A DNA stretch of 64,000 bases, taken from positions 1-64,000 of the forward strand of contig NZ_JAJTBB010000039.1 in the NCBI RefSeq assembly GCF_021287135.1, written 5' to 3'. The notes under the pieces are model-generated. The model made no database searches and was not told the DNA's origin. It was given only the letters and a program-made list of their open reading frames with translations. Below, in pieces: positions 1 to 13,825 of the stretch. This DNA is from Acidovorax sp. GTDB lineage: Bacteria > Pseudomonadota > Gammaproteobacteria > Burkholderiales > Burkholderiaceae_C. The stretch's first letter is position 1, and each line of letters starts with the position of its first letter. Position numbers and translations under genes: made by a program.

Positions 1-32
1 GCGCCGCGTGCATCTGCGGCCTCGGGCAGTCT

Positions 33-90
33 GCTGCGTTGCAAATCCTCGCAATAGCTGCGGCTATTGCTGCGTTTTGCGCCTTGCAGC
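33..90. repeat. Imperfect hairpin repeat at the window edge
   Basis: A perfect 8-bp stem, GCAATAGC (51-58) and GCTATTGC (63-70), encloses a TGCG loop. It is flanked by imperfectly complementary arms, CTGCGTTGCAAA on the left and TTTTGCGCCTTGCAG on the right. From memory, similar elements are scattered between genes in Comamonadaceae, but no second copy was found in this window. It lies downstream of the minus-strand lipoprotein gene and probably belongs to an intergenic repeat family. Confidence 0.5.
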
Positions 91-151
91 CCCTCCCGAT
101 CCGCAGCGCCCACTTACCGCTCAATTCGTGCAGAGCATCCCAAGGGCTGTT

Positions 152-169
152 AGAACGTCAACACGTTCT
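152..169 (-). terminator. Short hairpin abutting the lipoprotein stop codon
   Basis: AGAACGT (152-158) pairs with ACGTTCT (163-169) around a CAAC loop, giving a 7-bp stem that touches the minus-strand stop codon at 169-171. There is no T-run after it on the minus strand, so it could be a weak terminator or an mRNA 3'-end stabiliser for the lipoprotein gene. Confidence 0.4.
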
Positions 170-765
170 CAGGCCGGCAGGCACTGCACCGTGGTGTCGG
201 GCAACGCCAGCTTTTCGGCAAAGAGCCCGTTGCGCTCGGGCGAGATCAGCGCGCCCAGGCCTTGCATCACCGTGACTTCGGCACCCGGCTGCCGGTCGCG
301 GTAGCACTTGCCCAGCAGATCCAGCGTCTGCACCAGCGCCTGCGCCTGCGGCGGTGAAGTTTTCTCCAGCGACTGCGCGTGCTGGCGCAGCCAGCCTTCG
401 TACGCCTCCAGGCTGGGCTGCGGCAGCTTGGCCCGCTCCGCCTCGGGGATCATGCCGGCGAACAGGTTCTGCAGGCTTTGTGTGCCCGGCTGCCCCATCA
501 CCAGCACCGCGTCGTAGCGCGCCTCGTAGGCCCCCTGGCGGTAGATGACCTGGTGGATCTGGTAGCGCAGCCGGCCTTTCTCACCCCCCAGCGTGCGCAC
601 CAGTTCGCGGGCCGCCGCGCTGTGCGGGTCTGCAGCGAACTGCGCCTCCAGCGCCGCCGAGATCTGCGCGTCCGAGGGGAAGGACGGCGCCGCCTGCGGG
701 GTACAGGCCACCAGGCCCGCGCCGGCCGCCAAATACAAAAAGCCACGCAAGATAATAAATTTCAT
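169..765 (-). CDS. Putative lipoprotein of unknown function
   Basis: This 198-aa protein begins with a short lipoprotein signal peptide whose lipobox LVAC places the acylated cysteine at residue 21; Thr at +2 predicts retention in the outer membrane. The rest is soluble, largely helical, and has one internal Cys pair candidate (GKCYRD and VQCLPA near the C-terminus). I do not recognise the family. The gene is transcribed away from the CsgG-type cluster that starts at 1131, sharing a 365-bp intergenic region with it, so co-regulation is possible but unproven. The reading frame is uninterrupted and its codon bias matches the neighbours, which supports it being real. Confidence 0.75.
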   Translation of the reverse strand: MKFIILRGFLYLAAGAGLVACTPQAAPSFPSDAQISAALEAQFAADPHSAAARELVRTLGGEKGRLRYQIHQVIYRQGAYEARYDAVLVMGQPGTQSLQNLFAGMIPEAERAKLPQPSLEAYEGWLRQHAQSLEKTSPPQAQALVQTLDLLGKCYRDRQPGAEVTVMQGLGALISPERNGLFAEKLALPDTTVQCLPA

Positions 766-1130
766 ATTGATGACAACGCTCTGGAAAATCCAGCGGAATT
801 ATCAATGTCCGAATGTTCCTCCAGGTATCAGACGGATTTGAAGTGTGAAAACTTGTATGGATTTTGGCCCCCTGCCGGGGCATGGCGCGCGGGCCGTTCG
901 TGTGGGAATGTTTCCTGGCGCGAAGTCATTGCCTGTCCTACAACGCGCAAACTGCCGGCTTTGCCCAGGTGATCGTCGTGCCCGGCGGCTGTGGATAAGT
1001 TGGGCCGGCCGGCCCATCTGCGCTGTCTACATTTGTTAACTGTCGCGTTGCAGGCCCCCTTCAAGAATTCGCCCGCAGGCCGCACAAGGCTGCCCGTCGA
1101 TTAATTTCAACCCTTGGAAGGATTATTGAA
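766..1130. promoter_or_regulatory. Divergent intergenic region with a perfect DnaA-box sequence
   Basis: This 365-bp stretch separates two divergent genes and should hold promoters for both, but I cannot assign -35/-10 boxes with confidence. It is visibly more AT-rich near 740-850 than the genes around it. At 990-998 it contains TGTGGATAA, the exact complement of the DnaA-box consensus TTATCCACA. A clear ribosome-binding site GGAAGGA (1116-1122) precedes the ATG at 1131. Confidence 0.45.
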
Positions 1131-1490
1131 ATGCGTACCTTTGCCATTACCGCCGCCGCCACCTTGGCCCTGTCCTGCGGCGCTGCATTTGCCCAGAGCG
1201 GCAACGTCACCATCCCCGGCCTGCTGTCTGGCAAAGGGTCTGCGGGGTCGGAAGTCACCAACAGCAAGATCTCCGTGACTGGCAACAAGGCCACCAATGT
1301 CATCGCGGGCGGCGGCAAGGCCGGCATCAAGGTGGCGGAGGTGTCCATGGAAGGCGTGGCCAACGTCAACAGCATCAACATCACCGGCTCCAAGATCCGC
1401 AACTCGGAAATCACGGTCAGCGGCAACGAAGCCACCGACATCAAAGCCATTGGCGGCACCGCCAACGTCAACAGCGTGAACATCAACTAA
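1131..1490 (+). CDS. Small secreted repeat protein, putative minor fibre subunit
   Basis: This 119-aa protein has a classical signal peptide (residues 1-21, cleavage after AFA). The mature ~98 residues are two copies of the repeat that fills the 1193-aa protein downstream. The first is a long unit (ISVTGNKATNVIAGGGKA, then a VNSINI tail, ~45 aa) and the second a short unit (ITVSGNEATDIKAIGGTA, then VNSVNI, ~30 aa). The pattern VxVxGNxAxxIxAxGGxAxxNSV suggests beta-strand/turn rungs with stacked Asn. It is the first gene of the CsgG-type cluster and has a strong Shine-Dalgarno (GGAAGGA, 8 nt from ATG). By analogy with curli it could be a nucleator or minor subunit; that is inference. No cysteines remain after cleavage. 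Confidence 0.8.
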   Translation: MRTFAITAAATLALSCGAAFAQSGNVTIPGLLSGKGSAGSEVTNSKISVTGNKATNVIAGGGKAGIKVAEVSMEGVANVNSINITGSKIRNSEITVSGNEATDIKAIGGTANVNSVNIN

Positions 1491-1509
1491 GACCGTACCG
1501 CGCTGTGGG

Positions 1510-1551
1510 GGCCGGCGGGAGCCGGCCAGCCGCCGACCGGCCAAGGGCCGG
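1510..1551 (+). promoter_or_regulatory. Tandem hairpins between two fibre-like genes
   Basis: Two perfect stem-loops lie between the 119-aa and 1193-aa genes: GGCCGGC (1510-1516) with GCCGGCC (1521-1527), and CCGGCC (1537-1542) with GGCCGG (1546-1551). Neither has a T-run. They could act as mRNA processing or stability elements, or a leaky terminator, letting the first gene be expressed at a different level from the second. Confidence 0.45.
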
Positions 1552-1615
1552 GCGCACCCCCACGGCAGCCACCACGACCATCACCACGACCATCACCACC
1601 ACAAGGGGCTTCTGA

Positions 1616-4600
1616 GTGTCCACACCGCGCAAGACGCACCGGCGTGAATCTGCCGCCGCGCTAGGGTTGCTTGGCCTTTCCCTGGCCCTGGCCTGCGGGC
1701 GTGCGGGCGCGCAGGAATCCATGCTGGCCGGCCTGGGGTGGCACAAGAACAGCGCCGGCACGCAGGTGGACGCCAACAGCCAGATCCAGGTGCTGGACAA
1801 CCGCTCCACCGGGCCGGTGGTTTCCACCGGCGGCAAGGGATCGGCCCTGGCCAACGCCGGGATGCGCGTGGACCTGGCCGGCACCGCGCAGGCGAACGGC
1901 ATCGGCCTGGCCGCCATGGACGTGCGGCAGTCCCAGGTGCAGGTGCTGGGCAACCAGGTGACCGGCTTCATCCATGCACTGGGCGGGGCCGCCACCGTCA
2001 ACATGGTGCTGGCCGCCAGCGCGGAAGGCACCAAGCAGCTCACCGCCAGCCGGCTGCTGGTGCAGGGCAACCGCGCGGCCGAGGTGGCCGCCTTTGGTGC
2101 CAAGACGGAGGTGCTGCTGGGCACCGGCTCCCTGCAGATGCCGGGGCGCGCCAGCGCCAACAGCGTGCTGCTGGACGCCACGGACGTGCGCAACTCCGAA
2201 CTGGCCGTGGTGGGCAACGACGCACGGCGCATCACCTCCATCGGCGGCTCGGCGCTGGCCAATGCGCTCACGGCGGCACGGTCCACTCTGGTGGACACAC
2301 GAATTTTGCAGACCGCCAACCGCGCGGAGGATGTACGCGCCGGCGGGGGCGGCGGCGGGGTGGGGCGCGGCACGATCGCGCAGGTCAACCTGACCGGCGT
2401 GGCCGCCGCCAACGCTGTCACGCTGGCCTCCAGCCAGTTGCGGGGGGCGCAGCTGGTGCTGTCCCGCAACGAGGCCGCCCAGGTCATTGCCACGGGCGGC
2501 AGCGCCCTGGCCAACAGCATCAGCCTGACCGACCACCAGCTCGCCGGTTCTGCTGGCTACCAGGCGGGCGTGACCGGCAATACCGCGCGCAACGTGCAGG
2601 CCTGGGGCGGCGAAGGTTCCATCCTGGGCGGCGCGCTGGCCGACGTGCGCGTGGCCGCCACCGCCCTTGCCAACACTATTTCGGTGACCCGCGGCGAACT
2701 GGCCGAAAGGCCGGTGCACCAGCTGGCCGCCAACGAGGCCCGCGATGTGGTGGCGACCGGTGGCGGTGCCGCGGGCAACAGTCTGTGGCTGGACAACGCC
2801 GCCGTGCGCGGCGGCAGCGTGCTGCTGGCGGGCAACACGGCCGACCGGGTGCGCACGGCCGGGGGCAGCGGCAGCATCGGCGCGGGTGCCGTGGGCGCGC
2901 TGGAGCGCAACGGCCGCGCGCTGGCCAATACCGTGGTGGCCGACCACCAGGCCACGCTGGAGCGCGCAGCCGTCACCGTCACGGGCAATCGCGGCGCGTC
3001 CGTGACCGGCGCGGGTGGCCTGGCCGCGGCCAACAGCGTGATGGTGACGGAAGGGCGCGTGCAGAACACGACCGTCACGCTGGCGGGCAACCGTGCCGAC
3101 GGCGTGCAGTCCACCGGCTACGCGGCGCAGGCGGGCGGCGGGCTGCTGTTTTCGGCCAGCCAGCAGTCGGCCGCGCTGGCCAACACGCTGTCGGTCACGG
3201 GCTCGCAGCTGGATGCGGCCACGCTGACGGTGGCCGGCAACACGGCCTCGCGCCTGTCGGCCCGGGGCGGCGCCTTGCAGGCCAATAGCATCGCGGTCGA
3301 AAACGGCGCGGGCGCGCCCTCGCGGCTGTCGGCCGACGGCGCGCTGAGCGGCAACACGGCCAGCGACATGAGCACCACGGCCGACTCCGTCTCCGGCGCC
3401 GGGGGGCTGGCCAGCCGCGAAAGCCGCGCCCGCGCAGCCGCCAACGCGCTGGTGCTGCACGATGGCGCGCAGGTGGATGCGTCGTCGTCGTGGCTGGTGG
3501 CTGGCAACAGTGCGCGTGGCGTACACGCCACCGGCGGCACGGCGCTGGTCAATGCGCTGGCGGCCTACCGTGGGGCCTCCGTGCAGGGCAGCCCGGTCGT
3601 CATCGCGGGCAACACCGGCCAGGGCATCCGCGCCGCAGGCAGCGGCGCGCAGGCGCTGGGGGTGGGCAGCAAATCCAATGGCGTGCTGGCGGCCAACGGC
3701 CTGTACATGGATGGCGCGGGCGCGACGGCCCTGGCGCAGAGCAGCCTGCTGGTGGCGGGCAACACCGCCCGGCAGCTGAACGCCGATGGCGGCCGCATCA
3801 ATACCAATGCGCTGTCGCTCAATGCCCAGGGCCGCGTGCAGGGCAGCAGCATCACCGTGGCCGCCAACACGGCCGCCGACGTGCGCAGCGAGGGCCGTGA
3901 AGGCACCGTGGCGGGCTTTGCAGCCTTCGGCAAGGGCATTGGGCAAGCCAATGCCAATGCCGTGCAGGTGCTGGGCGAGATGCGGGCTGCCAGCCTGCAG
4001 CTCATCGCCAACCAGGCGGGGCGCGTGGTGGCCACCGAGGGGTTGGCCGCGGCCAACAGCTTCTCCCAGGGCGCGGGTGGCCGGGTGGAAGGGGTGCAGG
4101 CGCTGGTGGCCGCCAACACGGCCGTGTCCACGCAGGCCGAACAGGGCAGCACGGCCCTGGCCAACAGCGTGCAGGCCGACGGCACGCTACAGGGCAGCAC
4201 GGTGCAGGTGATGGCCAACCAGGGCAGCGCCCGCGCGGCCGCCCGCGACGGGCTGGCCAACAGCGTGCGGGCGCAAAGCCGCGGCCGCATTGCCGGCTCC
4301 AACGTCACGGTGACCGCCAACCAGGGATCGGGCCAGGAGGGTGTGGCCAACAGCGTGGACGTGGCGGGCACGCTGCAGGGCGGCAGCATCACCATCCTGG
4401 GCAACCAGGGCTCGGCCCGCGATGGCGGCGCCATCAACAGCGTGGCGGGCAGCGGGCGCATCACCGGCAGCCAGATCACCGTCATCGGCAATGCAGGGTC
4501 GGCCAGCGGCGGCTTGGCCAACAGCGTGCGCGCGGACGGCAGCATCACCGCGTCCAGCATCACCATCCTGGGCAACCAGGCGAGCGTGCAAGGCAGCGGC

Positions 4601-5197
4601 AGCAAGGTCAACAGCGTCACGGGCTCGGGCTCCATGAAGGGCAGCCAGGTCCTGATCGCGGGCAACACCGGCCGCGCCAGCGGGGGCGGCCTGGTCAACG
4701 GCCTGCACAACCGCGGCAGCATGAGCGGAGCGCAAGTGGTGATTACGGGCAACCAGGGCGACGCCACCGGCGGCGGCACGGTGAACAGCGTGGACAACCG
4801 CGGCCAGTTGTCGGGCCGCGTGATCATCGCGGGCAACCGGGGCAGCACCACGCTGGGCGGCACGGTCAACTCGCTGGTGAACCGCGGCGTGGTCACGGGC
4901 ACCGTGGTGATTGCGGGCAACCAGGGCCGCGCCGCCGTGGGGGGCGTGTCCAACTCGGTCATCAACCAGGGCCTCATCACCGGCGTGGTCACCGTGGTGG
5001 GCAACAACACGGTGGCGGGGGTGGGCATGACCTCGGGCAGTGTGCGCAACCTGGGCGGGGCCGTCACCGGCGCGGTGGGCGTGGCGGGCAACGCGGCGTT
5101 TGCGGCCAACCCGGGCTACACCTACACCCTTCCGTCCATGGGGGTGGTGAACCAGTCGGTCACGGTGCTGCCGGCGTTCAATGTTCTGAACATGTAG
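1616..5197 (+). CDS. Large secreted Asn/Gly-repeat protein, candidate surface fibre or adhesin
   Basis: This 1193-aa protein starts at a GTG (1616) with AAGGGG at 1603-1608; an in-frame TGA immediately before rules out an earlier start. A signal peptide (~33 aa, ending RAGAQ) precedes about 30 imperfect repeats and almost nothing else. Each repeat follows xGSxVxVxGNxAxxVxAxGGxAxANSV. Up to about residue 780 they alternate between long units (~46-52 aa, with an insert after the GG turn) and short units (mostly ~33-37 aa). The last dozen become uniform at 28-30 aa with a GNQG core. The mature part is rich in Gly, Ala, Asn, Ser and Val and has no Cys. The C-terminus (~50 aa) is a distinct tail ending FNVLNM. 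I see no autotransporter barrel, LPXTG motif or type I secretion signal, so export through the neighbouring CsgG-like pore is the likely route. A beta-solenoid or amyloid-like fold is inferred. Confidence 0.8.
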   Translation: MSTPRKTHRRESAAALGLLGLSLALACGRAGAQESMLAGLGWHKNSAGTQVDANSQIQVLDNRSTGPVVSTGGKGSALANAGMRVDLAGTAQANGIGLAAMDVRQSQVQVLGNQVTGFIHALGGAATVNMVLAASAEGTKQLTASRLLVQGNRAAEVAAFGAKTEVLLGTGSLQMPGRASANSVLLDATDVRNSELAVVGNDARRITSIGGSALANALTAARSTLVDTRILQTANRAEDVRAGGGGGGVGRGTIAQVNLTGVAAANAVTLASSQLRGAQLVLSRNEAAQVIATGGSALANSISLTDHQLAGSAGYQAGVTGNTARNVQAWGGEGSILGGALADVRVAATALANTISVTRGELAERPVHQLAANEARDVVATGGGAAGNSLWLDNAAVRGGSVLLAGNTADRVRTAGGSGSIGAGAVGALERNGRALANTVVADHQATLERAAVTVTGNRGASVTGAGGLAAANSVMVTEGRVQNTTVTLAGNRADGVQSTGYAAQAGGGLLFSASQQSAALANTLSVTGSQLDAATLTVAGNTASRLSARGGALQANSIAVENGAGAPSRLSADGALSGNTASDMSTTADSVSGAGGLASRESRARAAANALVLHDGAQVDASSSWLVAGNSARGVHATGGTALVNALAAYRGASVQGSPVVIAGNTGQGIRAAGSGAQALGVGSKSNGVLAANGLYMDGAGATALAQSSLLVAGNTARQLNADGGRINTNALSLNAQGRVQGSSITVAANTAADVRSEGREGTVAGFAAFGKGIGQANANAVQVLGEMRAASLQLIANQAGRVVATEGLAAANSFSQGAGGRVEGVQALVAANTAVSTQAEQGSTALANSVQADGTLQGSTVQVMANQGSARAAARDGLANSVRAQSRGRIAGSNVTVTANQGSGQEGVANSVDVAGTLQGGSITILGNQGSARDGGAINSVAGSGRITGSQITVIGNAGSASGGLANSVRADGSITASSITILGNQASVQGSGSKVNSVTGSGSMKGSQVLIAGNTGRASGGGLVNGLHNRGSMSGAQVVITGNQGDATGGGTVNSVDNRGQLSGRVIIAGNRGSTTLGGTVNSLVNRGVVTGTVVIAGNQGRAAVGGVSNSVINQGLITGVVTVVGNNTVAGVGMTSGSVRNLGGAVTGAVGVAGNAAFAANPGYTYTLPSMGVVNQSVTVLPAFNVLNM

Positions 5198-5263
5198 CCG
5201 CAGGCCGTTTCGGTGCGAAGACGGCTTTGGCGTTTCCCATTTGAAATGGACGAAGGAGTGGCG

Positions 5264-5722
5264 ATGACAACACGAAACCCCGATCTCCCAGCGCGCGCAC
5301 GGCGGGCGCTGGGCCTGTGCTGCGGTGCAGGAGCACTGGCCCTGCTGGGCACCGGCGCGCAGGCGCAGCTGGTGAACTACGGCGAGCAGCTGGGCGCCTA
5401 CAAGGACATGGCCAGCAGCGGCGTGCGGCTCAATGACGGCGTGTACCCGTCGGTGAGTGCCAAGGCCCGCGTGAACCGGGCCATCTCGCAGAACACGCTG
5501 GTGGACCAGAGTGCGCTGGTGCAGCCCGACGGCACCCTCAAGCTGCCCGAGGGGCAAAAGAACATCGTGATCCGCTCCACCTATTCCGACGTGCAGCGGG
5601 GCGCCGACGGCACGCTGCGCATTGCCAGCCCCGTCATCCAGGGCAATGTCACCGGCAACGTGACGCTGTATGTCGAAGGCAAGGGGGTGGAAAACATCAC
5701 TGTCCTCAATTCAGGCCGCTGA
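5264..5722 (+). CDS. Secreted accessory protein of the CsgG-type cluster
   Basis: This 152-aa protein starts at ATG 5264, chosen for the GAAGGAG at 5252-5258; in-frame upstream codons add only an arginine-rich extension. A signal peptide (about residues 1-30, ending AQAQ) leads to a ~120-aa mature domain with polar, strand-prone sequence and a C-terminal stretch VIQGNVTGNVTLYVEGKG that echoes the GN motif of the repeat proteins without forming full repeats. It sits between the 1193-aa protein and the CsgG-like lipoprotein, the position expected for a chaperone, pore cap or nucleator. I do not recognise the family and see no convincing similarity to CsgE or CsgF. A 12-bp hairpin follows its stop codon by 6 nt. 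Confidence 0.75.
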   Translation: MTTRNPDLPARARRALGLCCGAGALALLGTGAQAQLVNYGEQLGAYKDMASSGVRLNDGVYPSVSAKARVNRAISQNTLVDQSALVQPDGTLKLPEGQKNIVIRSTYSDVQRGADGTLRIASPVIQGNVTGNVTLYVEGKGVENITVLNSGR

Positions 5723-5728
5723 CGCACT

Positions 5729-5755
5729 GCGGCCCAGGCCGCGGGCCTGGGCCGC
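5729..5755 (+). promoter_or_regulatory. Perfect 12-bp hairpin between accessory and CsgG-like genes
   Basis: GCGGCCCAGGCC (5729-5740) pairs perfectly with GGCCTGGGCCGC (5744-5755) around a 3-nt GCG loop, six bases after the TGA at 5720-5722. There is no T-tract, so it is probably not a full terminator. A stable 3' hairpin of this kind could protect the upstream subunit mRNA or attenuate transcription into the secretion genes. Confidence 0.6.
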
Positions 5756-5807
5756 AAGGTCCCGAGAGAGCGGGGCCGTGGATACCCACTACACCAAGAA
5801 GACCACC

Positions 5808-6956
5808 ATGATCCAAAGAACTTTGCGATGGGGCGCGCTGGCGCTCGCCGTCGCTGCCCTGGGCGGATGCGCCTCCACCGAAAACGCCCTCAAGGACGCC
5901 AAGACCCTGATGGAAGAGCGCGAGGCCGACAAGCTGCTGCCCGTGACCAATCTCAGCCCCTATGCGCTGGCCCTGGGCCGCTTCGGGCGCATGCTGGACA
6001 TCTACAAGGAAGGCGACCCCGTCATCTATCTGCAGACCCGCAGCATCCTGGACGCCACCAACCTCTCCAGCCCTCTGGTGGGCGCCGAGATCCCGGGCGA
6101 CATCACGGAAATGGTGCGCACTGCCGTGAACCGCATTGGCGCCCGGGTGGTGTATGTGCCGTACCACCCGGACTACCTGGTGTCCCAGGCCCAGCTGGGG
6201 GCCAAGTTCGGGGTGACCATGCCCGACTTCCTGATCACCGGCGCGCTCACGGAATTCGACCGCGCCATCGCGGGGGCGGGGCGGGTGAACTCCGCAGGCA
6301 TCGAGTTCGGCAAGGGGGACGGCAAGGTCACGCTGGGCGGGGACGTCAAGCGCACGGCCATCTATTCCGCCCTGGCGCTGGACCTGAACCTGGTGAGCTT
6401 TTCCACCCAGCAGATGGTGCCGCAGATCCAGGCCTCCAACGTGGTGAAGGTGCTCAACTTCAGCTCCGAGGACAACGCCAGCCTGGGCTTCTACGGCGAT
6501 GCCTTCGGCTTCAAGCTGGAGGGCAAGTACCTGCAGGGCCGCCACTCGGCCATCCGCACCCTGGTGGACCTGAGCGTGCTGGAACTGGTCGGCAAGGCCA
6601 CCAACACCCCGTATTGGCGCTGCATTCCCAATGGCAAGCCCGATCCGGTGGTGGTTGAGAACATGCGCGCCGCGTACAACGCGCTGTCGCCCGAACTCAA
6701 GCTCGGCCTGATCCAGGTGACTCTGCGCAAGTACGGCGAGCCCGTACAGGTCACGCAGAAGTACGACGCAGAGACCCAGCAGGCCCTGGAAAAGGTGTAC
6801 GCCGAGCGGTATGCCGCGCTGGGGCCGGTGGACGTGATGACCTGGCAGGGCTTTGAACCCCTGTTCTTTGGCGTGCCCATGGCTTGGGAGACGGCCGCCA
6901 CCGCGCCCGTGGCCGGCGCCGGCGCGCCCGCGGCTGCTGCGAAGGCGGGCACATGA
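5808..6956 (+). CDS. CsgG-like outer-membrane secretion lipoprotein
   Basis: This 382-aa lipoprotein is the marker gene of the cluster. Its lipobox LGGC puts the lipid-bearing Cys at 21, and Ala at +2 predicts outer-membrane sorting. From about residue 90 to 270 it follows the CsgG layout: a nucleotide-binding-like alpha/beta region, the segment DFLITGALTEFDRAI, a Gly-rich hairpin region (residues ~165-185), an AIYSALALDLNLVSFST strand matching the CsgG beta-barrel strand after it, and LEGKYLQGRHSAIRTLVDLS near the end. CsgG forms a nonameric ungated pore exporting curli subunits, and HfaB of Caulobacter is a relative that exports holdfast anchors. A ~110-aa C-terminal extension ending in an Ala-rich tail is not typical. 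Its TGA overlaps the next gene's ATG by 4 nt, indicating translational coupling. It is presumably the export pore for the repeat proteins. Confidence 0.85.
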   Translation: MIQRTLRWGALALAVAALGGCASTENALKDAKTLMEEREADKLLPVTNLSPYALALGRFGRMLDIYKEGDPVIYLQTRSILDATNLSSPLVGAEIPGDITEMVRTAVNRIGARVVYVPYHPDYLVSQAQLGAKFGVTMPDFLITGALTEFDRAIAGAGRVNSAGIEFGKGDGKVTLGGDVKRTAIYSALALDLNLVSFSTQQMVPQIQASNVVKVLNFSSEDNASLGFYGDAFGFKLEGKYLQGRHSAIRTLVDLSVLELVGKATNTPYWRCIPNGKPDPVVVENMRAAYNALSPELKLGLIQVTLRKYGEPVQVTQKYDAETQQALEKVYAERYAALGPVDVMTWQGFEPLFFGVPMAWETAATAPVAGAGAPAAAAKAGT

Positions 6957-7789
6957 GGCCGGGCGTGCGCACCCCGTTGCGGCCCGTCTGGAGGGGGCTG
7001 GTGTGTGGGGTTGTGTGGGGGGGTGGCCTGCTCGGGCCGGCCCTGGCGCAGCAGGCCCCCGCGCAGGCCGTTCCGCCCGCCGGAGCTCAGGCCCCCGCCC
7101 AGCCGGCCACGCCCCCCGCTGCCGCCACGGCGGGGGCGCGGTTTCTGGAGGCCTGCAATGAGGCACTGGAGCGCGGCGTGGCCGAACTCGGGTGCCAGGG
7201 GCCGATCTACCGCAACGAACTGGAGCGCCTGCAGCGCGAGGCCCTGGCCACGCAGAACCCCCAACTGCTCTCGTTCGTGGGCGATGCCTATCGCAACCCG
7301 CGCGCCGGCATCGGCGACATGGGGCAGGCCTACCGCTGGTACCTGCTGGCGGCTGTGCGCGGCGACCCTCGGGCGATGCAGCGCCTGGCCGAGATGAACC
7401 GCAAAGGCCAGGGCGTGCCCCGCGACAACGTGAAGGCGCTGGGCTATGCCCGGCTGCTGGAGCGCCTGGCGCAGCCCGACACCGGCACCCAGCGCAACGT
7501 GCTGTCGCTCATCAACGAGTTGGGTGCCGAGATGGCCGTGGAAGAGGTGGCGCTGGCCGAGCGGTTTGCGTCCGAACTGGAGGCCCGCATCCAGCGCCAG
7601 GCCACGGCGGACGTCGGCGGCAAGCCGGTGGACGTGCCGCCGGCCCCGGCGGGTGCGGTGCGGCCGGGCTCGGGGCTCCCCGGCATGTCGGCCGTTCCGC
7701 GTTCGCTGCCGGTGCCGGCCACGGCCGCACCCGCCGCGCCGCTGCCTGGCAGTACCTTGCCGGGAACCCCTGGCAAGGCGCCGCCTTGA
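6953..7789 (+). CDS. Exported SEL1-like repeat protein
   Basis: This 278-aa protein starts at ATG 6953, overlapping the CsgG-like gene by ATGA. A signal peptide (cleavage near ALAQ, residue 33) is followed by a Pro/Ala/Gln linker, then a helical domain (about residues 62-205). That domain includes a recognisable SEL1 repeat, AYRWYLLAAVRGDPRAMQRL, continuing to an NRKGQGVPRDN turn. A Pro/Ala/Gly-rich tail follows. SEL1 repeats usually mediate protein-protein contacts in the periplasm. Its coupling to the pore gene suggests a scaffold or adaptor for the export complex; the exact partner is unknown. Confidence 0.75.
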   Translation: MRPGVRTPLRPVWRGLVCGVVWGGGLLGPALAQQAPAQAVPPAGAQAPAQPATPPAAATAGARFLEACNEALERGVAELGCQGPIYRNELERLQREALATQNPQLLSFVGDAYRNPRAGIGDMGQAYRWYLLAAVRGDPRAMQRLAEMNRKGQGVPRDNVKALGYARLLERLAQPDTGTQRNVLSLINELGAEMAVEEVALAERFASELEARIQRQATADVGGKPVDVPPAPAGAVRPGSGLPGMSAVPRSLPVPATAAPAAPLPGSTLPGTPGKAPP

Positions 7790-7818
7790 CGGCGATGGAT
7801 ACACAGAAGGTGACCGCC

Positions 7819-8274
7819 ATGGAACAACGCTGCCCCGTGTCCCCCCGCCGTTCGCGGGCCTGGCTGCTGGCGCTGCTGCTGCCCTGCGCCGCAACGGCGG
7901 GCCCGGTGGGGCCGCAGGGGACCATCGGCCCCACCGGACCGTTGGGCCCTGCCGCCGCCGACCGGCCCGTGGTGCCGCAGCGCAGCGCCCGCAGCACGGC
8001 CTCCGCACCGGCGGCACCTGCGTCTTCGGTGCAGCCCGCCGCCGCGGCCGCGGAGGGCAACCGCATCGAGGTGTCGGGCAATACCGCGTCGGGCACCCGT
8101 TGCGCTGGCCCGGGCCACGCCTCCGTCAACAGTGTCGACGTGTCCGGCGCGCGCCTGGAAGGCCGCACGGTCATCGTGCAGGGCCGCAACGCCAACCAGG
8201 TACGCACCGAGGACTGTCCGCAGTCGCCGGCGCGTCCGCGGCAGGAGCAGACCCACAGCATCCGCATCCGCTGA
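7819..8274 (+). CDS. Secreted protein with collagen-like triplets and one fibre-type repeat
   Basis: This 151-aa protein is assigned the ATG at 7819 because AGAAGG (7804-7809) lies at ideal distance; an ATG at 7795 is possible. The signal peptide ends near CAATA. The mature N-terminus carries six consecutive Gly-X-Y triplets (GPVGPQGTIGPTGPLGP), a collagen-like run, then an Ala/Pro/Ser linker. After this comes a single unit related to the cluster's repeat: NRIEVSGNTASG, then ASVNSVDVSG, then RTVIVQGRNANQVR. Two cysteines (in GTRCAG and TEDCPQ) bracket that unit and could form a disulfide. Its role may be a cap, linker or minor subunit of the fibre; this is inference from shared repeats and position. 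Confidence 0.75.
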   Translation: MEQRCPVSPRRSRAWLLALLLPCAATAGPVGPQGTIGPTGPLGPAAADRPVVPQRSARSTASAPAAPASSVQPAAAAAEGNRIEVSGNTASGTRCAGPGHASVNSVDVSGARLEGRTVIVQGRNANQVRTEDCPQSPARPRQEQTHSIRIR

Positions 8275-8311
8275 GCCGCGCAGTGCAGTGAAGCGCTTTT
8301 CTACCGAACCC

Positions 8312-8935
8312 ATGACCTACCCAGCACCCAACCCCCGTTCGTTCCCACCCACTCCCTGGCCGCGTGCGGCCGCCGCCGCGATGGCCGCCGCTGCCCTGCT
8401 GTTGGCCGCGTGCAAGGAGCCGGCCGCACCGCAACCCAAGGTGTCCGCGGCTGCGGAGCCTGCCCCGGCGCCCGCGGCCGCGCCACCAGCCCCCGCACCC
8501 GCTGCGGCTCCTGCGGCGCAGCCCGCGCCTGCAGCGCCTGCTGCTGCGGCCGCCCCGCGCAAGCAGACCCTGGCCATCCAGGGCGTGGCTCCGGCCGGCG
8601 TCACGGTGCGCGTGAAGGGCGTGGAAATGGGGGCCGACGCCACGGTGCTCGACGTGAGCATCTCGTTTGCCAACCGCATCACCGACACCACCATGCTGGC
8701 GCTGGCGGACACGTACCTGCAGGATGAAAGCGGCGCCCGCCTGCACATCAAGCGGCCCGACAACAACCGCGACATCACCCTCCGCGAGGGCGAAACGCTG
8801 GACGGGCAACTGGTGTTCCTGGGGGCGGTGGCGCCCTCGGCCCGCAAGCTCAAGCTGGTGTTCAACGACGGCAACCAGGGCGACAACATCGTGGCGCCGG
8901 GGCTGGTCATCGACCTGCCGCTGCAGGGCGGCTGA
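8312..8935 (+). CDS. Lipoprotein with long Ala/Pro tether and a beta-domain
   Basis: This 207-aa protein (ATG 8312; ATG 8381 and GTG 8288 are alternatives, with no clear ribosome-binding site to decide) has a lipobox LAAC with Cys34 and Lys at +2. A ~65-residue Ala/Pro-rich stretch follows, likely an extended tether. The C-terminal ~115 aa form a strand-rich domain (VRVKGVEMGADATVLDVSIS, then a DITLREGETLDGQLVF segment) resembling the immunoglobulin-like domains of exported lipoproteins. Its TGA overlaps the ATG of the OmpA-like gene (TGATG), so the two are coupled. It may position the secretion complex in the outer membrane, but its specific role is unknown. Confidence 0.75.
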   Translation: MTYPAPNPRSFPPTPWPRAAAAAMAAAALLLAACKEPAAPQPKVSAAAEPAPAPAAAPPAPAPAAAPAAQPAPAAPAAAAAPRKQTLAIQGVAPAGVTVRVKGVEMGADATVLDVSISFANRITDTTMLALADTYLQDESGARLHIKRPDNNRDITLREGETLDGQLVFLGAVAPSARKLKLVFNDGNQGDNIVAPGLVIDLPLQGG

Positions 8936-9672
8936 TGCGCGCCGGATGGACGGCTGCTGGCGTGCGCGCGTTGCGCACCCTGGTCCCTGCGGGGATGGCG
9001 GCAGTGCTGGCCTTGGCCGGCGTGCCTGCGCGGGCGTGGGAGGTGGTGCGCAGCCAGCGTGCGCTGGCCGATGTGCCGACGCGGCTGGTGCCAGCCTCTG
9101 AAGCGCCGGCCACGGTGCTGCGTCCGCCGCAGCCGGCGGGCGGCCTCGCGGCCCGCACGCAGGAGTCCACGTTGCAGCGCAGCGCCGGCCCGCAGACGGT
9201 GCTGCGCGAGGCCGAGGTCCCGCGCGAGCGGCTGGCGCAGACGCGTGCCCTGTGGGCCGAGCTCAAGGCGCGCCCCACGCCGGAGCAGGCCATTTCCATT
9301 GACCTGCCGGCCGACGTGCTGTTCGACTTCGACAAGGCCGATCTGCGGCCGGACGCGGCCCCGTCGCTGGACAAGGCGGCCGAACTCATCAAGAGCTACG
9401 CTGCGGCGCCCCTGACCGTGCGCGGCCATACCGATGGCAAGGGCACGGACGCGTACAACGACAGCCTGTCGCTGCGCCGTGCCGAGACGGTTTCTGCCGC
9501 GCTGCGCCAGCGCACGGGCCGCCCCGCGCGGGTGGAAGGCCTGGGCAAGCGCGAGCCCGTGGCGCCCAACACCACGCCGGACGGCCGCGACGACCCGCAG
9601 GGGCGCCAGCTCAACCGGCGGGTGCAAATCCTCATCGGCGTGCCGGGCACGCAGCCCAAGGAAGGCAGGTAG
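8935..9672 (+). CDS. OmpA-family peptidoglycan-binding protein
   Basis: This 245-aa protein has an N-terminal signal peptide (~34 aa) and a ~90-aa linker, then a C-terminal OmpA/MotB domain (residues ~120-240). The domain contains ADVLFDFDKADLRPDA, the VRGHTDGKGTD segment that carries the meso-diaminopimelate-binding Asp, and the closing GRQLNRRVQILI with its Arg. No beta-barrel is present, so it is a periplasmic or outer-membrane-associated cell-wall anchor. Inside this cluster it most likely ties the secretion assembly to peptidoglycan. It starts at the overlapping TGATG junction with the preceding lipoprotein gene. Confidence 0.85.
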   Translation: MRAGWTAAGVRALRTLVPAGMAAVLALAGVPARAWEVVRSQRALADVPTRLVPASEAPATVLRPPQPAGGLAARTQESTLQRSAGPQTVLREAEVPRERLAQTRALWAELKARPTPEQAISIDLPADVLFDFDKADLRPDAAPSLDKAAELIKSYAAAPLTVRGHTDGKGTDAYNDSLSLRRAETVSAALRQRTGRPARVEGLGKREPVAPNTTPDGRDDPQGRQLNRRVQILIGVPGTQPKEGR

Positions 9673-9678
9673 AACAGC

Positions 9679-9933
9679 ATGGCCCTGGTCCGTTGCCCGG
9701 AATGTGGGCGTGAAGTGTCATCGCAGGCGCCGGCCTGCCCGGGGTGCGGCTACCCGCTGCAAGAGCGCCCGTCCCCCGCGCCGGGGCCCCAGGGCGCGCT
9801 GCAGTCGCCGCACCTGTGGGGCCGCCTCGCCATGGTGTTGGGCGCGTGGCTGGTCACGCCCTGGATCGCCCGGCTGATCGTGGCGCTGGCGGTGTGCGTG
9901 CTGGCGTACTTCCTGTTCACCGGCGCACGCTGA
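9679..9933 (+). CDS. Zinc-ribbon single-pass membrane protein
   Basis: This 84-aa protein opens with a zinc ribbon made of two CxxC knuckles (CPEC at 6-9 and CPGC near 20-23), continues through a Pro-rich linker, and ends in a hydrophobic segment (~residues 50-80) that should span the membrane once or form a hairpin. It starts 6 nt after the OmpA-like gene and is the last gene of the cluster. Zinc-ribbon/TM proteins of this size are common and mostly uncharacterised; a regulatory or assembly role is possible. The ribbon would face the cytoplasm if the single TM runs N-in. Confidence 0.7.
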   Translation: MALVRCPECGREVSSQAPACPGCGYPLQERPSPAPGPQGALQSPHLWGRLAMVLGAWLVTPWIARLIVALAVCVLAYFLFTGAR

Positions 9934-9952
9934 CGCCGCCGCGGGCCTGGCA

Positions 9953-10729
9953 TCACTCGGCAAGGGCGTGCGCCGGTCGCGTCGCTTGTACCGCACTGGC
10001 CAGGGCCACTGCGTCCGCGCCTGCGGCATAGCGCAGGCGCGGCGTCGTATCGGTGGCCGCTGTCCACACCACCTCGGCCACGTCCTGTTCGGTGGTCAGC
10101 GCGGCGGGCTGGCTGTAGGCCGCAAACACCGATTGCGCATAGGGCGCGTAAGCGGGCGGGATCAGGCCCTGCAGGCGCTCGGTGCTGTTGGCGGTGAACT
10201 GCGTGGTGGGGCCGTAGCCGGGCTGGACGAGCTTTACCCGCACGCCAAAGGTCTGAAGCTCGAACGCGAGCGAGGCGGTGAACCCCTCAATGGCGGCCTT
10301 GCTGGCCGTGTAGGCCGCCACCAGGGGCATGGGCGCAAGGGTGGCGCTGGAGGTGACGTTGATCACCAGGCCCGCTGCGCGTGCGCGCATTTGCGGCAGC
10401 ACGGCCTGGGTCAGGGCCATGGTGCCGAAGGTGTTCGTCTCGAAGATGTCGCGCACGGTGGCCATGGGGGTGGCCTCGAAGGCGCCGAAGAGGCCCACGC
10501 CCGCATTGTTGACCAGCACGTCGATGGGGCCCGCGTCGCTCAGCGCCTGGGCAATGCTGGCGGGCTGGGTCACGTCCAGCGGCAGCACCCGCAGACGTTC
10601 CGACGTGGGCAGCACATCGGTGCGGGGCGTGCGCATGGTGGCGATGACGTTCCAGCCCTGGGCCAGAAAGTGGCGGGCGGTGGCCAGGCCGTAGCCGGAT
10701 GAGCAGCCGGTGATGAGGATGGTTTTCAT
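9953..10729 (-). CDS. Short-chain dehydrogenase/reductase (SDR)
   Basis: This 258-aa classical SDR has the NAD(P)-binding TGCSSGYG motif (residues 7-14), the NNAG motif in DVLVNNAGVGLFG, the catalytic Ser in NVTSSATLAPM and the YxxxK pair in AAYTASKAAIEG. It should catalyse an NAD(P)-dependent oxidoreduction of an alcohol or ketone; the substrate cannot be read from sequence. A good Shine-Dalgarno (AGGAG) precedes its start. It is divergent from an AraC-type regulator across 115 bp, the usual arrangement for a regulator and its target. Its end faces the zinc-ribbon gene only 19 bp away. Confidence 0.9.
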   Translation of the reverse strand: MKTILITGCSSGYGLATARHFLAQGWNVIATMRTPRTDVLPTSERLRVLPLDVTQPASIAQALSDAGPIDVLVNNAGVGLFGAFEATPMATVRDIFETNTFGTMALTQAVLPQMRARAAGLVINVTSSATLAPMPLVAAYTASKAAIEGFTASLAFELQTFGVRVKLVQPGYGPTTQFTANSTERLQGLIPPAYAPYAQSVFAAYSQPAALTTEQDVAEVVWTAATDTTPRLRYAAGADAVALASAVQATRPAHALAE

Positions 10730-10844
10730 GGTTGGACTCCTGGAGAAGGATGGGTTGCACTGCGAAATCAGTAGGGCAACGATACCGGCCTGAAGCAGAA
10801 TTATCTACAATCAATGGTCGTGTTTTCTTTTGCAGGAGTCCGGT

Positions 10845-11756
10845 TTGGTCGATCCTTTGGCCGAGGTAATTGCGCTGCTGCGGCCGCGCGCCGTGTTCTC
10901 CAAGGTCGTCAGCGGTGCGGGGGCTTGGGCCGTGCGGTACGCTGAATTCGGCCAGCCCAGCTTCTGCGCCGTGCTGGAAGGGGAATGCGTGCTGGCGGTG
11001 GAGGGGCAGGAGCCGGTGATGCTGCGGTCCGGTGATTTCATCTTGATGCCGGCCACGCCGGGCTTCACGCTGTCCGCGGTGGAGGCGGGGGCCGCCGCGC
11101 CCGTACTCCGGGACCCCCGCAACAAGCCGCCCGTGCCCGAGGGCGAGCAGGGGCTGCGGCACGGCACGCCCGATGGGCCTGCGGACATGCGCATGCTGGG
11201 CGGTTATTTTGAATTCGACTCGCCGGACGCGGCGTTGCTGGTGGCCCTGTTGCCCGCGCTGCTCCTGGTGCGCGAAACGGCCGCGCTGCCCACGCTGGTG
11301 CAACTGGTGCGGCAGGAATGCCTGGCCACGCTGCCAGGGCGCGATCTGGTGCTGGGGCGGCTGGTGGAGGTGCTGCTGATCGAGGCACTGCGCAGCGGCC
11401 ACCACGACGGCGCCCCGCCGGGCTTGCTGCGCGGGCTGGCCGATGCGCGGGTGGCCGTCGGGCTGCGGCTGATGCACAGCGCCCCCGGGCATTCCTGGAC
11501 GGTGGATGCGCTGGCGCGCGAGGCGGCGCTGTCGCGCTCCACGTTTTTCGAGCGGTTTTCGCGCGCCGTGGGCCAGCCGCCCATGGAATACCTTTTGGCC
11601 TGGCGCATGGCCCTGGCCAAAAGGTTGCTCAACGGCGGCGAACTGGGGGTGGCCGAAGTGGCCGAGCGTGTGGGCTACAGCTCGGCCAGCACCTTCAGCA
11701 CGGCCTTCAGCCGGCATGTGGGCCTGCCGCCAGGGCGCTATGCGCGGCAGGCGTGA
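10845..11756 (+). CDS. AraC-family transcriptional regulator with cupin sensor domain
   Basis: This 303-aa regulator is assigned the TTG at 10845, where GGAG (10834-10837) is well spaced. An N-terminal cupin-type sensor domain (residues ~15-185; VRYAEFGQPSFCAVLEGECV) precedes two AraC helix-turn-helix motifs at the C-terminus (WTVDALAREAALSRSTFFER and LGVAEVAERVGYSSASTFST). The layout matches the cupin-6 AraC group that often controls adjacent reductase genes. It probably regulates the divergent SDR gene. Ligand unknown. Confidence 0.88.
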   Translation: MVDPLAEVIALLRPRAVFSKVVSGAGAWAVRYAEFGQPSFCAVLEGECVLAVEGQEPVMLRSGDFILMPATPGFTLSAVEAGAAAPVLRDPRNKPPVPEGEQGLRHGTPDGPADMRMLGGYFEFDSPDAALLVALLPALLLVRETAALPTLVQLVRQECLATLPGRDLVLGRLVEVLLIEALRSGHHDGAPPGLLRGLADARVAVGLRLMHSAPGHSWTVDALAREAALSRSTFFERFSRAVGQPPMEYLLAWRMALAKRLLNGGELGVAEVAERVGYSSASTFSTAFSRHVGLPPGRYARQA

Positions 11757-11796
11757 GGGTCTCTTGGGGACGCGGTGCCGCGCAGTGGCCGCCGCC

Positions 11797-11822
11797 AAAA
11801 AAAGAAAAGGGCCCGAAGGCCC
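11797..11822 (-). terminator. Rho-independent terminator of the PhoX gene
   Basis: On the minus strand GGGCC-TTCG-GGCCC is followed by TTTTCTTTTTTT. The stable UUCG tetraloop and long U-tract make this a convincing intrinsic terminator for the phosphatase gene. It lies in the convergent gap and may also slow read-through from the AraC gene. Confidence 0.85.
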
Positions 11823-11875
11823 GGTTCTTTCGTGGCGGCCCGAGCGTGCAGCACGCACGCGGGCCGCATAGCCGC

Positions 11876-13825
11876 TTAACGCTGGCGCAGCGCGGGCTGC
11901 TTGGCGGTGCCGGTGAGGTAGCCCACGCCAGCGCCCGCCTTGTTCTTGTAATTGGCGTTGATGAGGGGATCCAGCGTGCCCTTGACCACGCTGTGGATGC
12001 CGCCCCAGTCGCCGGGGTGCTGGAAGTTGCTCATGATGTAGGTCCAGCCGTTGATCTCGTCCACGGCGTGCAGGCCGGTGGATTCGCCGCCCGCGGGGAT
12101 GGACATGAGGCGCGACAGCTCCTTGGTGTCCACGTTGTAGGCCCACAGGAAGTTGTTCACGTGCTGGCTGCTGTCCTCGCCGATGAACAGGGTGCGCATC
12201 TTTTCCGAGAACTTGAGGTTGTCGGGGTTGCAGACCTTGTTGGGGTTGCCGGTGTTGCCCAGGGCGTCGGCGGCGATGTCCTCGCCGGCCAGCAGGGCCT
12301 TGGTGTCGACAGGCATCCACTCGCTGTTGATGGCGCCACCAGCGGTGTCCTTCTGGCCGCCGCGCAGGTTCAGGGCCATCACCACACCAGCCTTCAGGGT
12401 CTTAGGGATGGAAATGCCATTGCCCGGCACGTTGGCGGCGTCGCCCGCCACCATCGACTTTTCGCAGTTCTGCAGGGCCGAGTACGCGATCTTGTCCTTG
12501 GCGTTGACGGTGGTGCCTTCCATCTTGGTGAAGCCCATGCTGGCGCCCTTGAAGGCTGCGTAGCGGTGGGTTTCCAGGAAGGCGGCGGCCTTTTCCATGC
12601 CGGGGTTGATCTTGATCCACTCGGTCTTGCCGTTGGCCACGATCTTGGTGTAGCTGGCGTCGCCAGGGTCCTTGCTGGCCACGCTCATGATGTCCGTAGG
12701 CTTGAGCGTGTTGGCCAGCTGCTCGATCTCGGCGCTAGTGGCCGAGCCCAGCTTGATCCAGGTGAGCGGAGCACCGTTGGCGGCCGCAGGGTCGATGGAG
12801 AAGCCGGCGCCCACCTTGGCGGCGTACAGCGTGCCCGAGGACAGGTCCTTTTCCTTGTCGGCCACGAACACGAAGTAGGCGCTGTTGGTGGCGTCGTCGC
12901 CCATCAGCGCGGTGCGCTGGTCGGGCATCACCTGCACCAGTTCGTGCGAGATGCGGCCCATGCAGAAGTGCTTTTTGATGGACGCGGTGCCATCGGGGTT
13001 CACCGTCACTTCGGGCATGTGGCCGTAGTGATAGGGGTTGGCCTTGGTCTCGTCGCCAAACAGGTTCTTGCTGTAGGCCTTGAGCTGGGCGTTGCTGCTG
13101 TTGAAGGCATCGGGCTCGTACTCTTCGCTGGACAGGTGCGTGCCCCAGGGCGACAGGCTGGCGCCGCAGGTGATCCACAGGCCGTGCACCTTGGAGGTGT
13201 CCACGTTGTGGTACTTCACCAGGCTGAGCTTGCCGGTGTTGGGGTCCTGGTCCAGCGTGAGCACGGCGATGGGCGAGGGCAGCTTGCCGTACATGTCGGT
13301 CTTGCCGTCTTGCGCCCAGGTGGTGTATTCAAACTGCACCACGGCGAACACGGGGTTGCCCTTGACCCCGTCCACCTTGGCGTTGGGCACGGTGAGCAGC
13401 GAGGTGCCGTCGGGCGAATCCGAGAAGAACTGGCGTTCCGCGCCGGGCACGGAGGTGTCGATGATGGCCTTGTTGTTGATGTCGTAGTAGCCGCCAGCCA
13501 GCACCTTGCCGCCCTTGCCGTCCGGCACCAGGTCGCCGGTGATGAAGAAGGGCTGGTAGGCCAGGGCATACGACTGCGTGCTGCCGTCGCTGAGCTTCAC
13601 GTTCAACGAGGAGCCCACCGAGGTGGTGGCCATGGCGGCGGCGCTGGCCAGCGTGGGGGCGGCCATCGACGTGAACGATGCGGAGGCAAAGGTCGCCTCA
13701 TCGCTGCCGCCGCCGCACCCGGTGGCCAGCAGCGAAGCGGCCGCCGAGGTACCGATGGGCAGCATGGGAATGCCGGCCAGAAGTTGCAGGGCCTTGCGGC
13801 GGGTGGGCGTGGTCGTGTGGGACAT
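11876..13825 (-). CDS. phoX: PhoX-type alkaline phosphatase
   Basis: This 649-aa protein belongs to the PhoX (DUF839) family, Tat-exported calcium/iron-dependent phosphatases that release phosphate from phosphoesters in the periplasm. The N-terminus carries a Tat-like TRRKALQLLAG motif (residues 8-18); a Cys in LLATGCGGGS (about residue 37) also makes a lipidated form possible. Family hallmarks include the SPWGTHLSSEEYEPDAF segment, the YHYGHMPEV stretch and LFIGEDSSQHVNN near the C-terminus. The start at 13825 was chosen because it begins directly before the Tat motif. A strong terminator follows the gene. I see no convincing Pho box upstream, though one may be present. Confidence 0.88.
   Translation of the reverse strand: MSHTTTPTRRKALQLLAGIPMLPIGTSAAASLLATGCGGGSDEATFASASFTSMAAPTLASAAAMATTSVGSSLNVKLSDGSTQSYALAYQPFFITGDLVPDGKGGKVLAGGYYDINNKAIIDTSVPGAERQFFSDSPDGTSLLTVPNAKVDGVKGNPVFAVVQFEYTTWAQDGKTDMYGKLPSPIAVLTLDQDPNTGKLSLVKYHNVDTSKVHGLWITCGASLSPWGTHLSSEEYEPDAFNSSNAQLKAYSKNLFGDETKANPYHYGHMPEVTVNPDGTASIKKHFCMGRISHELVQVMPDQRTALMGDDATNSAYFVFVADKEKDLSSGTLYAAKVGAGFSIDPAAANGAPLTWIKLGSATSAEIEQLANTLKPTDIMSVASKDPGDASYTKIVANGKTEWIKINPGMEKAAAFLETHRYAAFKGASMGFTKMEGTTVNAKDKIAYSALQNCEKSMVAGDAANVPGNGISIPKTLKAGVVMALNLRGGQKDTAGGAINSEWMPVDTKALLAGEDIAADALGNTGNPNKVCNPDNLKFSEKMRTLFIGEDSSQHVNNFLWAYNVDTKELSRLMSIPAGGESTGLHAVDEINGWTYIMSNFQHPGDWGGIHSVVKGTLDPLINANYKNKAGAGVGYLTGTAKQPALRQR

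Follow-up and report, generated by a model that had tools for sequence, protein, structure and literature searches.

The window analysed here is a stretch of 64,000 nucleotides from Acidovorax sp. (assembly GCF_021287135.1, contig NZ_JAJTBB010000039.1, positions 1 to 64,000 of the forward strand). Near its start lies a conserved and apparently undescribed export-type operon; no earlier description was found in a search of titles, abstracts and open papers only, a result that does not prove absence. It comprises nine plus-strand genes at 1131–9933 (g1–g9), among them a candidate outer-membrane pore gene (g4) and three genes for proteins with one Asn/Gly repeat in common (g1, g2 and g6). All nine open reading frames of an initial annotation of this DNA are present at the coordinates it gave; it had overlooked a tenth conserved gene, the divergently transcribed lipoprotein gene u169m. 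It had also described several junctions as coupled by overlaps of 1–4 base pairs (bp), of which we found two (g4/g5 by 4 bp and g7/g8 by 1 bp), the remaining gaps being 6–125 bp. Alternative starts are possible for g6, at 7786 or 7795. The genes are listed below with protein lengths in amino acids (aa) and the number of loci, among 36 compared, in which each was scored as present by best hit.

g1, 1131–1490, plus strand: 119 aa; signal peptide read by eye; Asn/Gly repeat, about two coils; 35 of 36 loci
g2, 1616–5197, plus strand: 1193 aa, GTG start; signal peptide (by eye); predicted beta-solenoid of about 29 coils; 36 of 36
g3, 5264–5722, plus strand: 152-aa exported protein, a family of its own, encoded between the repeat genes and the pore gene; 36 of 36
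g4, 5808–6956, plus strand: 382-aa lipoprotein; by profile a distant CsgG/HfaB-superfamily member; candidate outer-membrane pore; 36 of 36
g5, 6953–7789, plus strand: 278-aa exported Sel1-repeat protein; 33 of 36
g6, 7819–8274, plus strand: 151 aa; signal peptide read by eye; g1/g2 repeat, one to two coils; 31 of 36
g7, 8312–8935, plus strand: 207-aa lipoprotein; Pro/Ala linker; weak DUF4352-like domain; 31 of 36
g8, 8935–9672, plus strand: 245-aa OmpA-domain protein; candidate peptidoglycan anchor; 31 of 36
g9, 9679–9933, plus strand: 84-aa zinc-ribbon protein, hydrophobic segment at the C-terminus; 27 of 36
u169m, 169–765, minus strand: divergent 198-aa lipoprotein, lipobox ending in LVAC (by eye); 32 of 36

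The domain assignments made initially hold for g8 (Pfam OmpA, E = 4e-18), g9 (Pfam Zn_ribbon_3, E = 2e-7) and g5 (Pfam Sel1, E = 7.5e-7; 29.9 bits, just under the cut-off of 30.7). The DUF4352 match in g7 (E = 0.0092) is below the Pfam cut-off. Scans against Pfam and NCBIfam gave no family at the curated cut-off for g1, g2, g3, g4, g6, g7 or u169m, and u169m matched nothing in either collection. Rfam gave no family within positions 1–12000 of the window.

Conservation and linkage of the gene set

The 36 loci were obtained by scanning genomes with the g4 alignment, and come from Acidovorax, Ottowia, Diaphorobacter, Variovorax, Xylophilus, Xenophilus, Pseudacidovorax, Brachymonas, Vandammella and unclassified records. 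Five of them (L114, L116, L124, L130 and L138) are clipped by contig ends; in the other 31, g1–g8 are all present in every case. The locus, including u169m, is thus conserved in this family, and the two genes that follow it in the window recur in 1 of the 36 loci. In eight other genomes of the family with a close g4, u169m and g1–g8 were found in all eight and g9 in seven; the two sets overlap in some genomes and are not independent. The ratio of nonsynonymous to synonymous substitution rates (dN/dS), calculated for the window against five Acidovorax loci among the 36, is 0.06–0.09 for g4, 0.09–0.18 for g1–g3, 0.16–0.27 for g5 and g7–g9, and 0.27–0.45 for g6. Because synteny extends across 36 loci and dN/dS stays at 0.06–0.45, the gene set goes beyond chance association.

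Among 150 genomes of the family, g1, g3 and a close g4 (at least 66% identity) each occur in nine, and in the same nine (clade A); none of the three was found alone among these genomes at E 0.001. Across 399 genomes of the order, the g4 alignment matched 18, of which four belong to the g4 group (three Comamonadaceae and G455, from another family) and the others are distant. A g3 search of the same 399 genomes returned three clade A cases and one marginal match in G471, and missed G455. Absences in these order and family searches are not absolute, since few candidates were scored per genome (4 in the order g4 search, 9 in the order g3 search and up to 25 in the family g3 search). The marginal match (G471:C16:163108–163233, L165; g3 profile, 6.3e-4 over 42 positions) is from another family.

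Repeat proteins and the g4 pore candidate

The single Asn/Gly repeat that the initial annotation had seen in g1, g2 and g6 was confirmed by BLASTP between g1 and g2 (4e-12) and by profile comparisons of g1 with g2 (4.2e-13), g1 with g6 (5.2e-14) and g6 with g2 (2.2e-4). For each profile pair, the six controls (one reversed, five shuffled) gave nothing better than 0.046; plain BLASTP between g6 and g2 was weak (0.011). Signal peptides on the three proteins were read by eye, and that of g2 holds only if translation begins at the GTG. A relative, P0121 (1193 aa), starts there too, and five of the 59 g2 relatives listed are annotated as 1158 aa, corresponding to a start at ATG 1721 without the signal peptide. 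The closest relative among the matches listed is from Acidovorax sp. M2(2025) (97% identical), and the NCBI name for g2-type proteins is 'beta strand repeat-containing protein'. g6 has in addition a collagen-like (Gly-X-Y)n stretch after its signal peptide, with at least four triplets in a row in 10 of 31 orthologues.

The structure of the 1193-aa protein, which the initial annotation had left to prediction, was modelled confidently by AlphaFold2 as a long beta-solenoid of about 29 coils (predicted local distance difference test score, pLDDT, 79.6; predicted template modelling score, pTM, 0.78). In g2, 54 of 83 Asn residues are at least 90% conserved. The modelled solenoid has conserved Asn ladders, and by the Asn spacing the coils measure 28–51 residues. 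Foldseek with the model gave no match at E 1e-3 or better. Its VIA matches include many beta-helix proteins, which show the fold class only.

Profile comparison (hhalign) connected g4 to HfaB with P = 5.9e-14 over 275 columns, reversed and ten shuffled controls being 0.06 or worse, and HfaB to CsgG with 1.2e-23. Because g4 is linked in this way to HfaB, and HfaB to CsgG, g4 is by these profiles a distant member of the CsgG/HfaB superfamily of outer-membrane pores. Its lipobox was read by eye, and Cys21 is invariant across all 45 rows of the alignment. The initial annotation had called g4 CsgG-like; this stands at the level of the superfamily, by way of HfaB, but not for CsgG proper. The direct comparison of g4 with CsgG was not significant (0.04), there was no Pfam match to CsgG (PF03783) at E up to 1, and the score against HfaB (NF037935; 19.9 bits, E = 3.3e-4) did not reach the curated equivalog cut-off of 300 bits. 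In the tree, g4 forms a group of its own, apart from CsgG. Neither g4 by itself nor its alignment matched any PDB sequence, and the structure model of g4 (pLDDT 51) is too uncertain in its fold for use. Failure against the CsgG HMMs, together with structure comparison, had been named in the initial annotation as refuting its reading; the HMM failure did take place at the curated cut-offs, but the distant relationship is recovered by the profile comparison with HfaB. To our knowledge, it is with curli that CsgG-type pores have been studied in depth, HfaB being the other described case. The sole PF03783 match in the same genome lies elsewhere (C49:71021–71515, L001; 25 bits).

On balance we favour, with some reserve, the explanation that g4 forms a pore that would export the predicted solenoids g1, g2 and g6 and thereby form a fibre or anchor on the cell surface, distinct from curli. 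The curli-like export of a different substrate that was initially proposed stands to the extent that a pore of the CsgG/HfaB superfamily is linked to a repeat family other than curlin; pore formation, export, surface location and fibre formation by the products of this locus are what we infer.

Related loci in other Burkholderiales

In G455, the only genome available from its family, a locus (L140) has OmpA, g1-like, g3-like and g4-like genes in a row, followed by a gene for a DUF2807 protein. The g1-like protein was matched by the g1 profile at E = 1.5e-9 (plain BLASTP, 0.007) and the g3-like protein by the g3 profile at 5.8e-4 (BLASTP, 1e-4), each as the only match among the open reading frames of 11 loci, and the g4-like protein is 44.5% identical to g4. 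No g2 was found within the 19 kilobases examined. This minimal locus, known from one genome, suggests g1–g3–g4 as the likely core of the system, and g2 looks as though it arose later, in Comamonadaceae, by expansion of the g1 coil. Besides the DUF2807 protein, the minimal locus (L140:8563–17857) has as neighbours genes for a WD40/caspase-domain protein and for a ShlB-type two-partner-secretion transporter.

The same linkage bears on the possibility that g4, though an outer-membrane lipoprotein of this superfamily, has no part in exporting g2, which would then be periplasmic or leave by another route. According to the available part of one paper (PMC3521004), Burkholderiales have two curli systems, and CsgG-family matches outside curli are common and were judged likely paralogues; the weak structure model of g4 is compatible with such a role. 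However, g1, g3 and a close g4 travel together in the nine clade A genomes and none was seen alone, L140 keeps its g1-, g3- and g4-like genes together, and g2 has no Pfam domain of another secretion route. We regard a non-exporting g4 as distinctly unlikely.

Distant g4 homologues (24–34% identity) occur in 23 further genomes of the family and in five of the nine clade A genomes, and 11 loci taken from them make up a second Burkholderiales pore group (group B). In the tree its pores and g4 fall together on one side (100/99), g4 matched them in profile comparison at 2.6e-25, and the gene order is similar, with a repeat protein, a small exported protein and the pore in succession. A motif screen found the repeat gene in 9 of the 11 loci and the small exported gene in seven, an eighth being seen separately. 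In L041–L048 and L051, short repeat proteins ending in (A/T)SN motifs are encoded beside CsgG-like pores, most of them with a protein of about 140 aa that is exported and ends in VVLRGDxVNIC. Of the proteins tested with Pfam, the two pores both have DUF4384 and the two encoded after a pore both have Sel1, in one case under the cut-off; a LuxR-type response regulator was identified in the single case examined, and three repeat proteins tested had no Pfam family at the cut-off. Group B differs from the Acidovorax locus in its larger pore protein and in that no giant solenoid was seen, and OmpA-domain genes lie near the pore in 2 of the 11 loci (L043 and L049). The g1, g2, g3 and g6 profiles found no relative among the open reading frames of seven group B loci. 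A kinship of g3 with the small exported proteins of group B was rejected (profile 0.037 versus 0.027 for the reversed control), as was one of g2 with a group B repeat protein (no BLASTP match). Downstream of another distant CsgG-like pore, L143:10826–12001 encodes a 391-aa exported protein with regularly spaced NIxQSQAGLLNxQxMxIGN repeats and no Pfam family.

Comparison with curli and holdfast systems

Curli resemble the locus in the pore superfamily, reached through HfaB, in beta-solenoid repeats with stacked Asn, and in secreted repeat proteins of unequal length. As far as the available parts of the sources go, curli subunits cross CsgG unfolded and then fold as beta-solenoids (PMC10192328), and CsgA homologues with up to 22 repeats pair with a CsgG of unchanged size (PMC3521004). 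The superfamily and the Asn-rich solenoid repeats present in both would fit a curli system whose curlins and accessory factors have diverged strongly. However, neither curlin repeats (PF07012) nor CsgF (PF10614) was found in any of the nine clade A genomes, while the E. coli positive control matched both. Within the nine locus proteins, to which the CsgE search was confined, Pfam likewise gave no curlin repeat, CsgE or CsgF, in agreement with the initial annotation. The g2 coils of 28–51 residues contrast with 23 ± 5 in curlins (PMC10192328, available part), g2 is about eight times as long as CsgA (151 aa), and the g4 group is separate from CsgG in the tree and shows no direct CsgG profile match. 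Strongly diverged curli are thus very improbable.

The closest described pore, HfaB of the Caulobacterales HfaABD system, suggests a different alternative, in which the pore displays a few solenoid proteins that hold a surface polysaccharide, with no protein fibre. HfaA and HfaD require HfaB to reach the outer membrane and both anchor the holdfast (PMC6707917, available part). In HfaABD too, the pore gene adjoins that of a small exported protein, and a gene for a long Asn-rich exported protein follows. Polysaccharide-active enzymes and phage tailspikes account for many of the beta-helix matches of the g2 model, and an OmpA-domain wall anchor is encoded in the locus. On the other side, the ten conserved genes include no polysaccharide-enzyme family, and the two downstream genes are kept in a single locus. 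The Acidovorax locus also differs from HfaABD in its giant solenoid and its Sel1, OmpA and lipoprotein genes, and in the score of g4 far below the HfaB cut-off. Profile matches of g3 to HfaA (0.008 over 13 columns; four reference sequences) and of g2 to HfaD (0.3; three reference sequences) are not convincing, the references having been picked by their position beside HfaB. An HfaA-like C-terminus of g3 seen by eye was not counted, as the 0.008 match lies elsewhere in g3. We consider a polysaccharide anchor of this kind unlikely, if the most serious of the alternatives.

Type V beta-helix adhesins such as EtpA and Vag8 are set apart by the lack in g2 of any two-partner-secretion or autotransporter domain (Pfam, E up to 1). 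Further afield, a Neisseria lipoprotein, MafA, has been likened to CsgG in a discussion (PMC7738311, available part), and NanoporeDB surveys CsgG-like pores, its main text, as far as available, being without HfaB, Comamonadaceae, Acidovorax or Burkholderia (PMC13397529).

For export of the repeat proteins through g4, we propose the following course. Sec would carry g1, g2 and g6 to the periplasm, and g4 would pass them unfolded, as CsgG does CsgA. Outside, they would fold, their Asn ladders stacking coil on coil, and g1 and g6, with one to two coils each by eye, may serve the long g2 rod as nuclei, caps or joints. The gene for g3 directly precedes that of the pore, where its product could assist; the OmpA-domain protein g8, the lipoprotein g7 and the Sel1 protein g5 might hold the complex at the wall. 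A fuller picture is offered tentatively, as a possibility short of an even chance. In it, a chain of 1193 aa exported unfolded would become, outside the cell, a rod of about 29 coils. Two Asn ladders would run along it, every second coil of its first two thirds would carry a flexible loop, and the short, open-ended g1 and g6 would start, join or cap such rods. Burkholderiales would then have at least two pore groups distinct from that of curli, each paired with a repeat family of its own, and the rods would be a third kind of CsgG-superfamily surface polymer.

If there is indeed a pore group that has a giant solenoid as its own substrate, this would suggest that the superfamily is a general exporter of ladder-repeat proteins, Acidovorax, Variovorax and their relatives would gain a surface structure so far without a name, and new pores and large solenoid rods would become available for nanopore and materials work. 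The small g1–g3–g4 core makes the question of export directly testable.

Two features at the ends of the repeat proteins were also observed. Ahead of the first coil, the mature N-termini of g1 and g2 have a common GS.GSEV/SPGSEV signature that is a candidate for an export signal, though we regard it as a lead only, and residues 1160–1193 of g2 form a conserved C-terminal tail of low model confidence.
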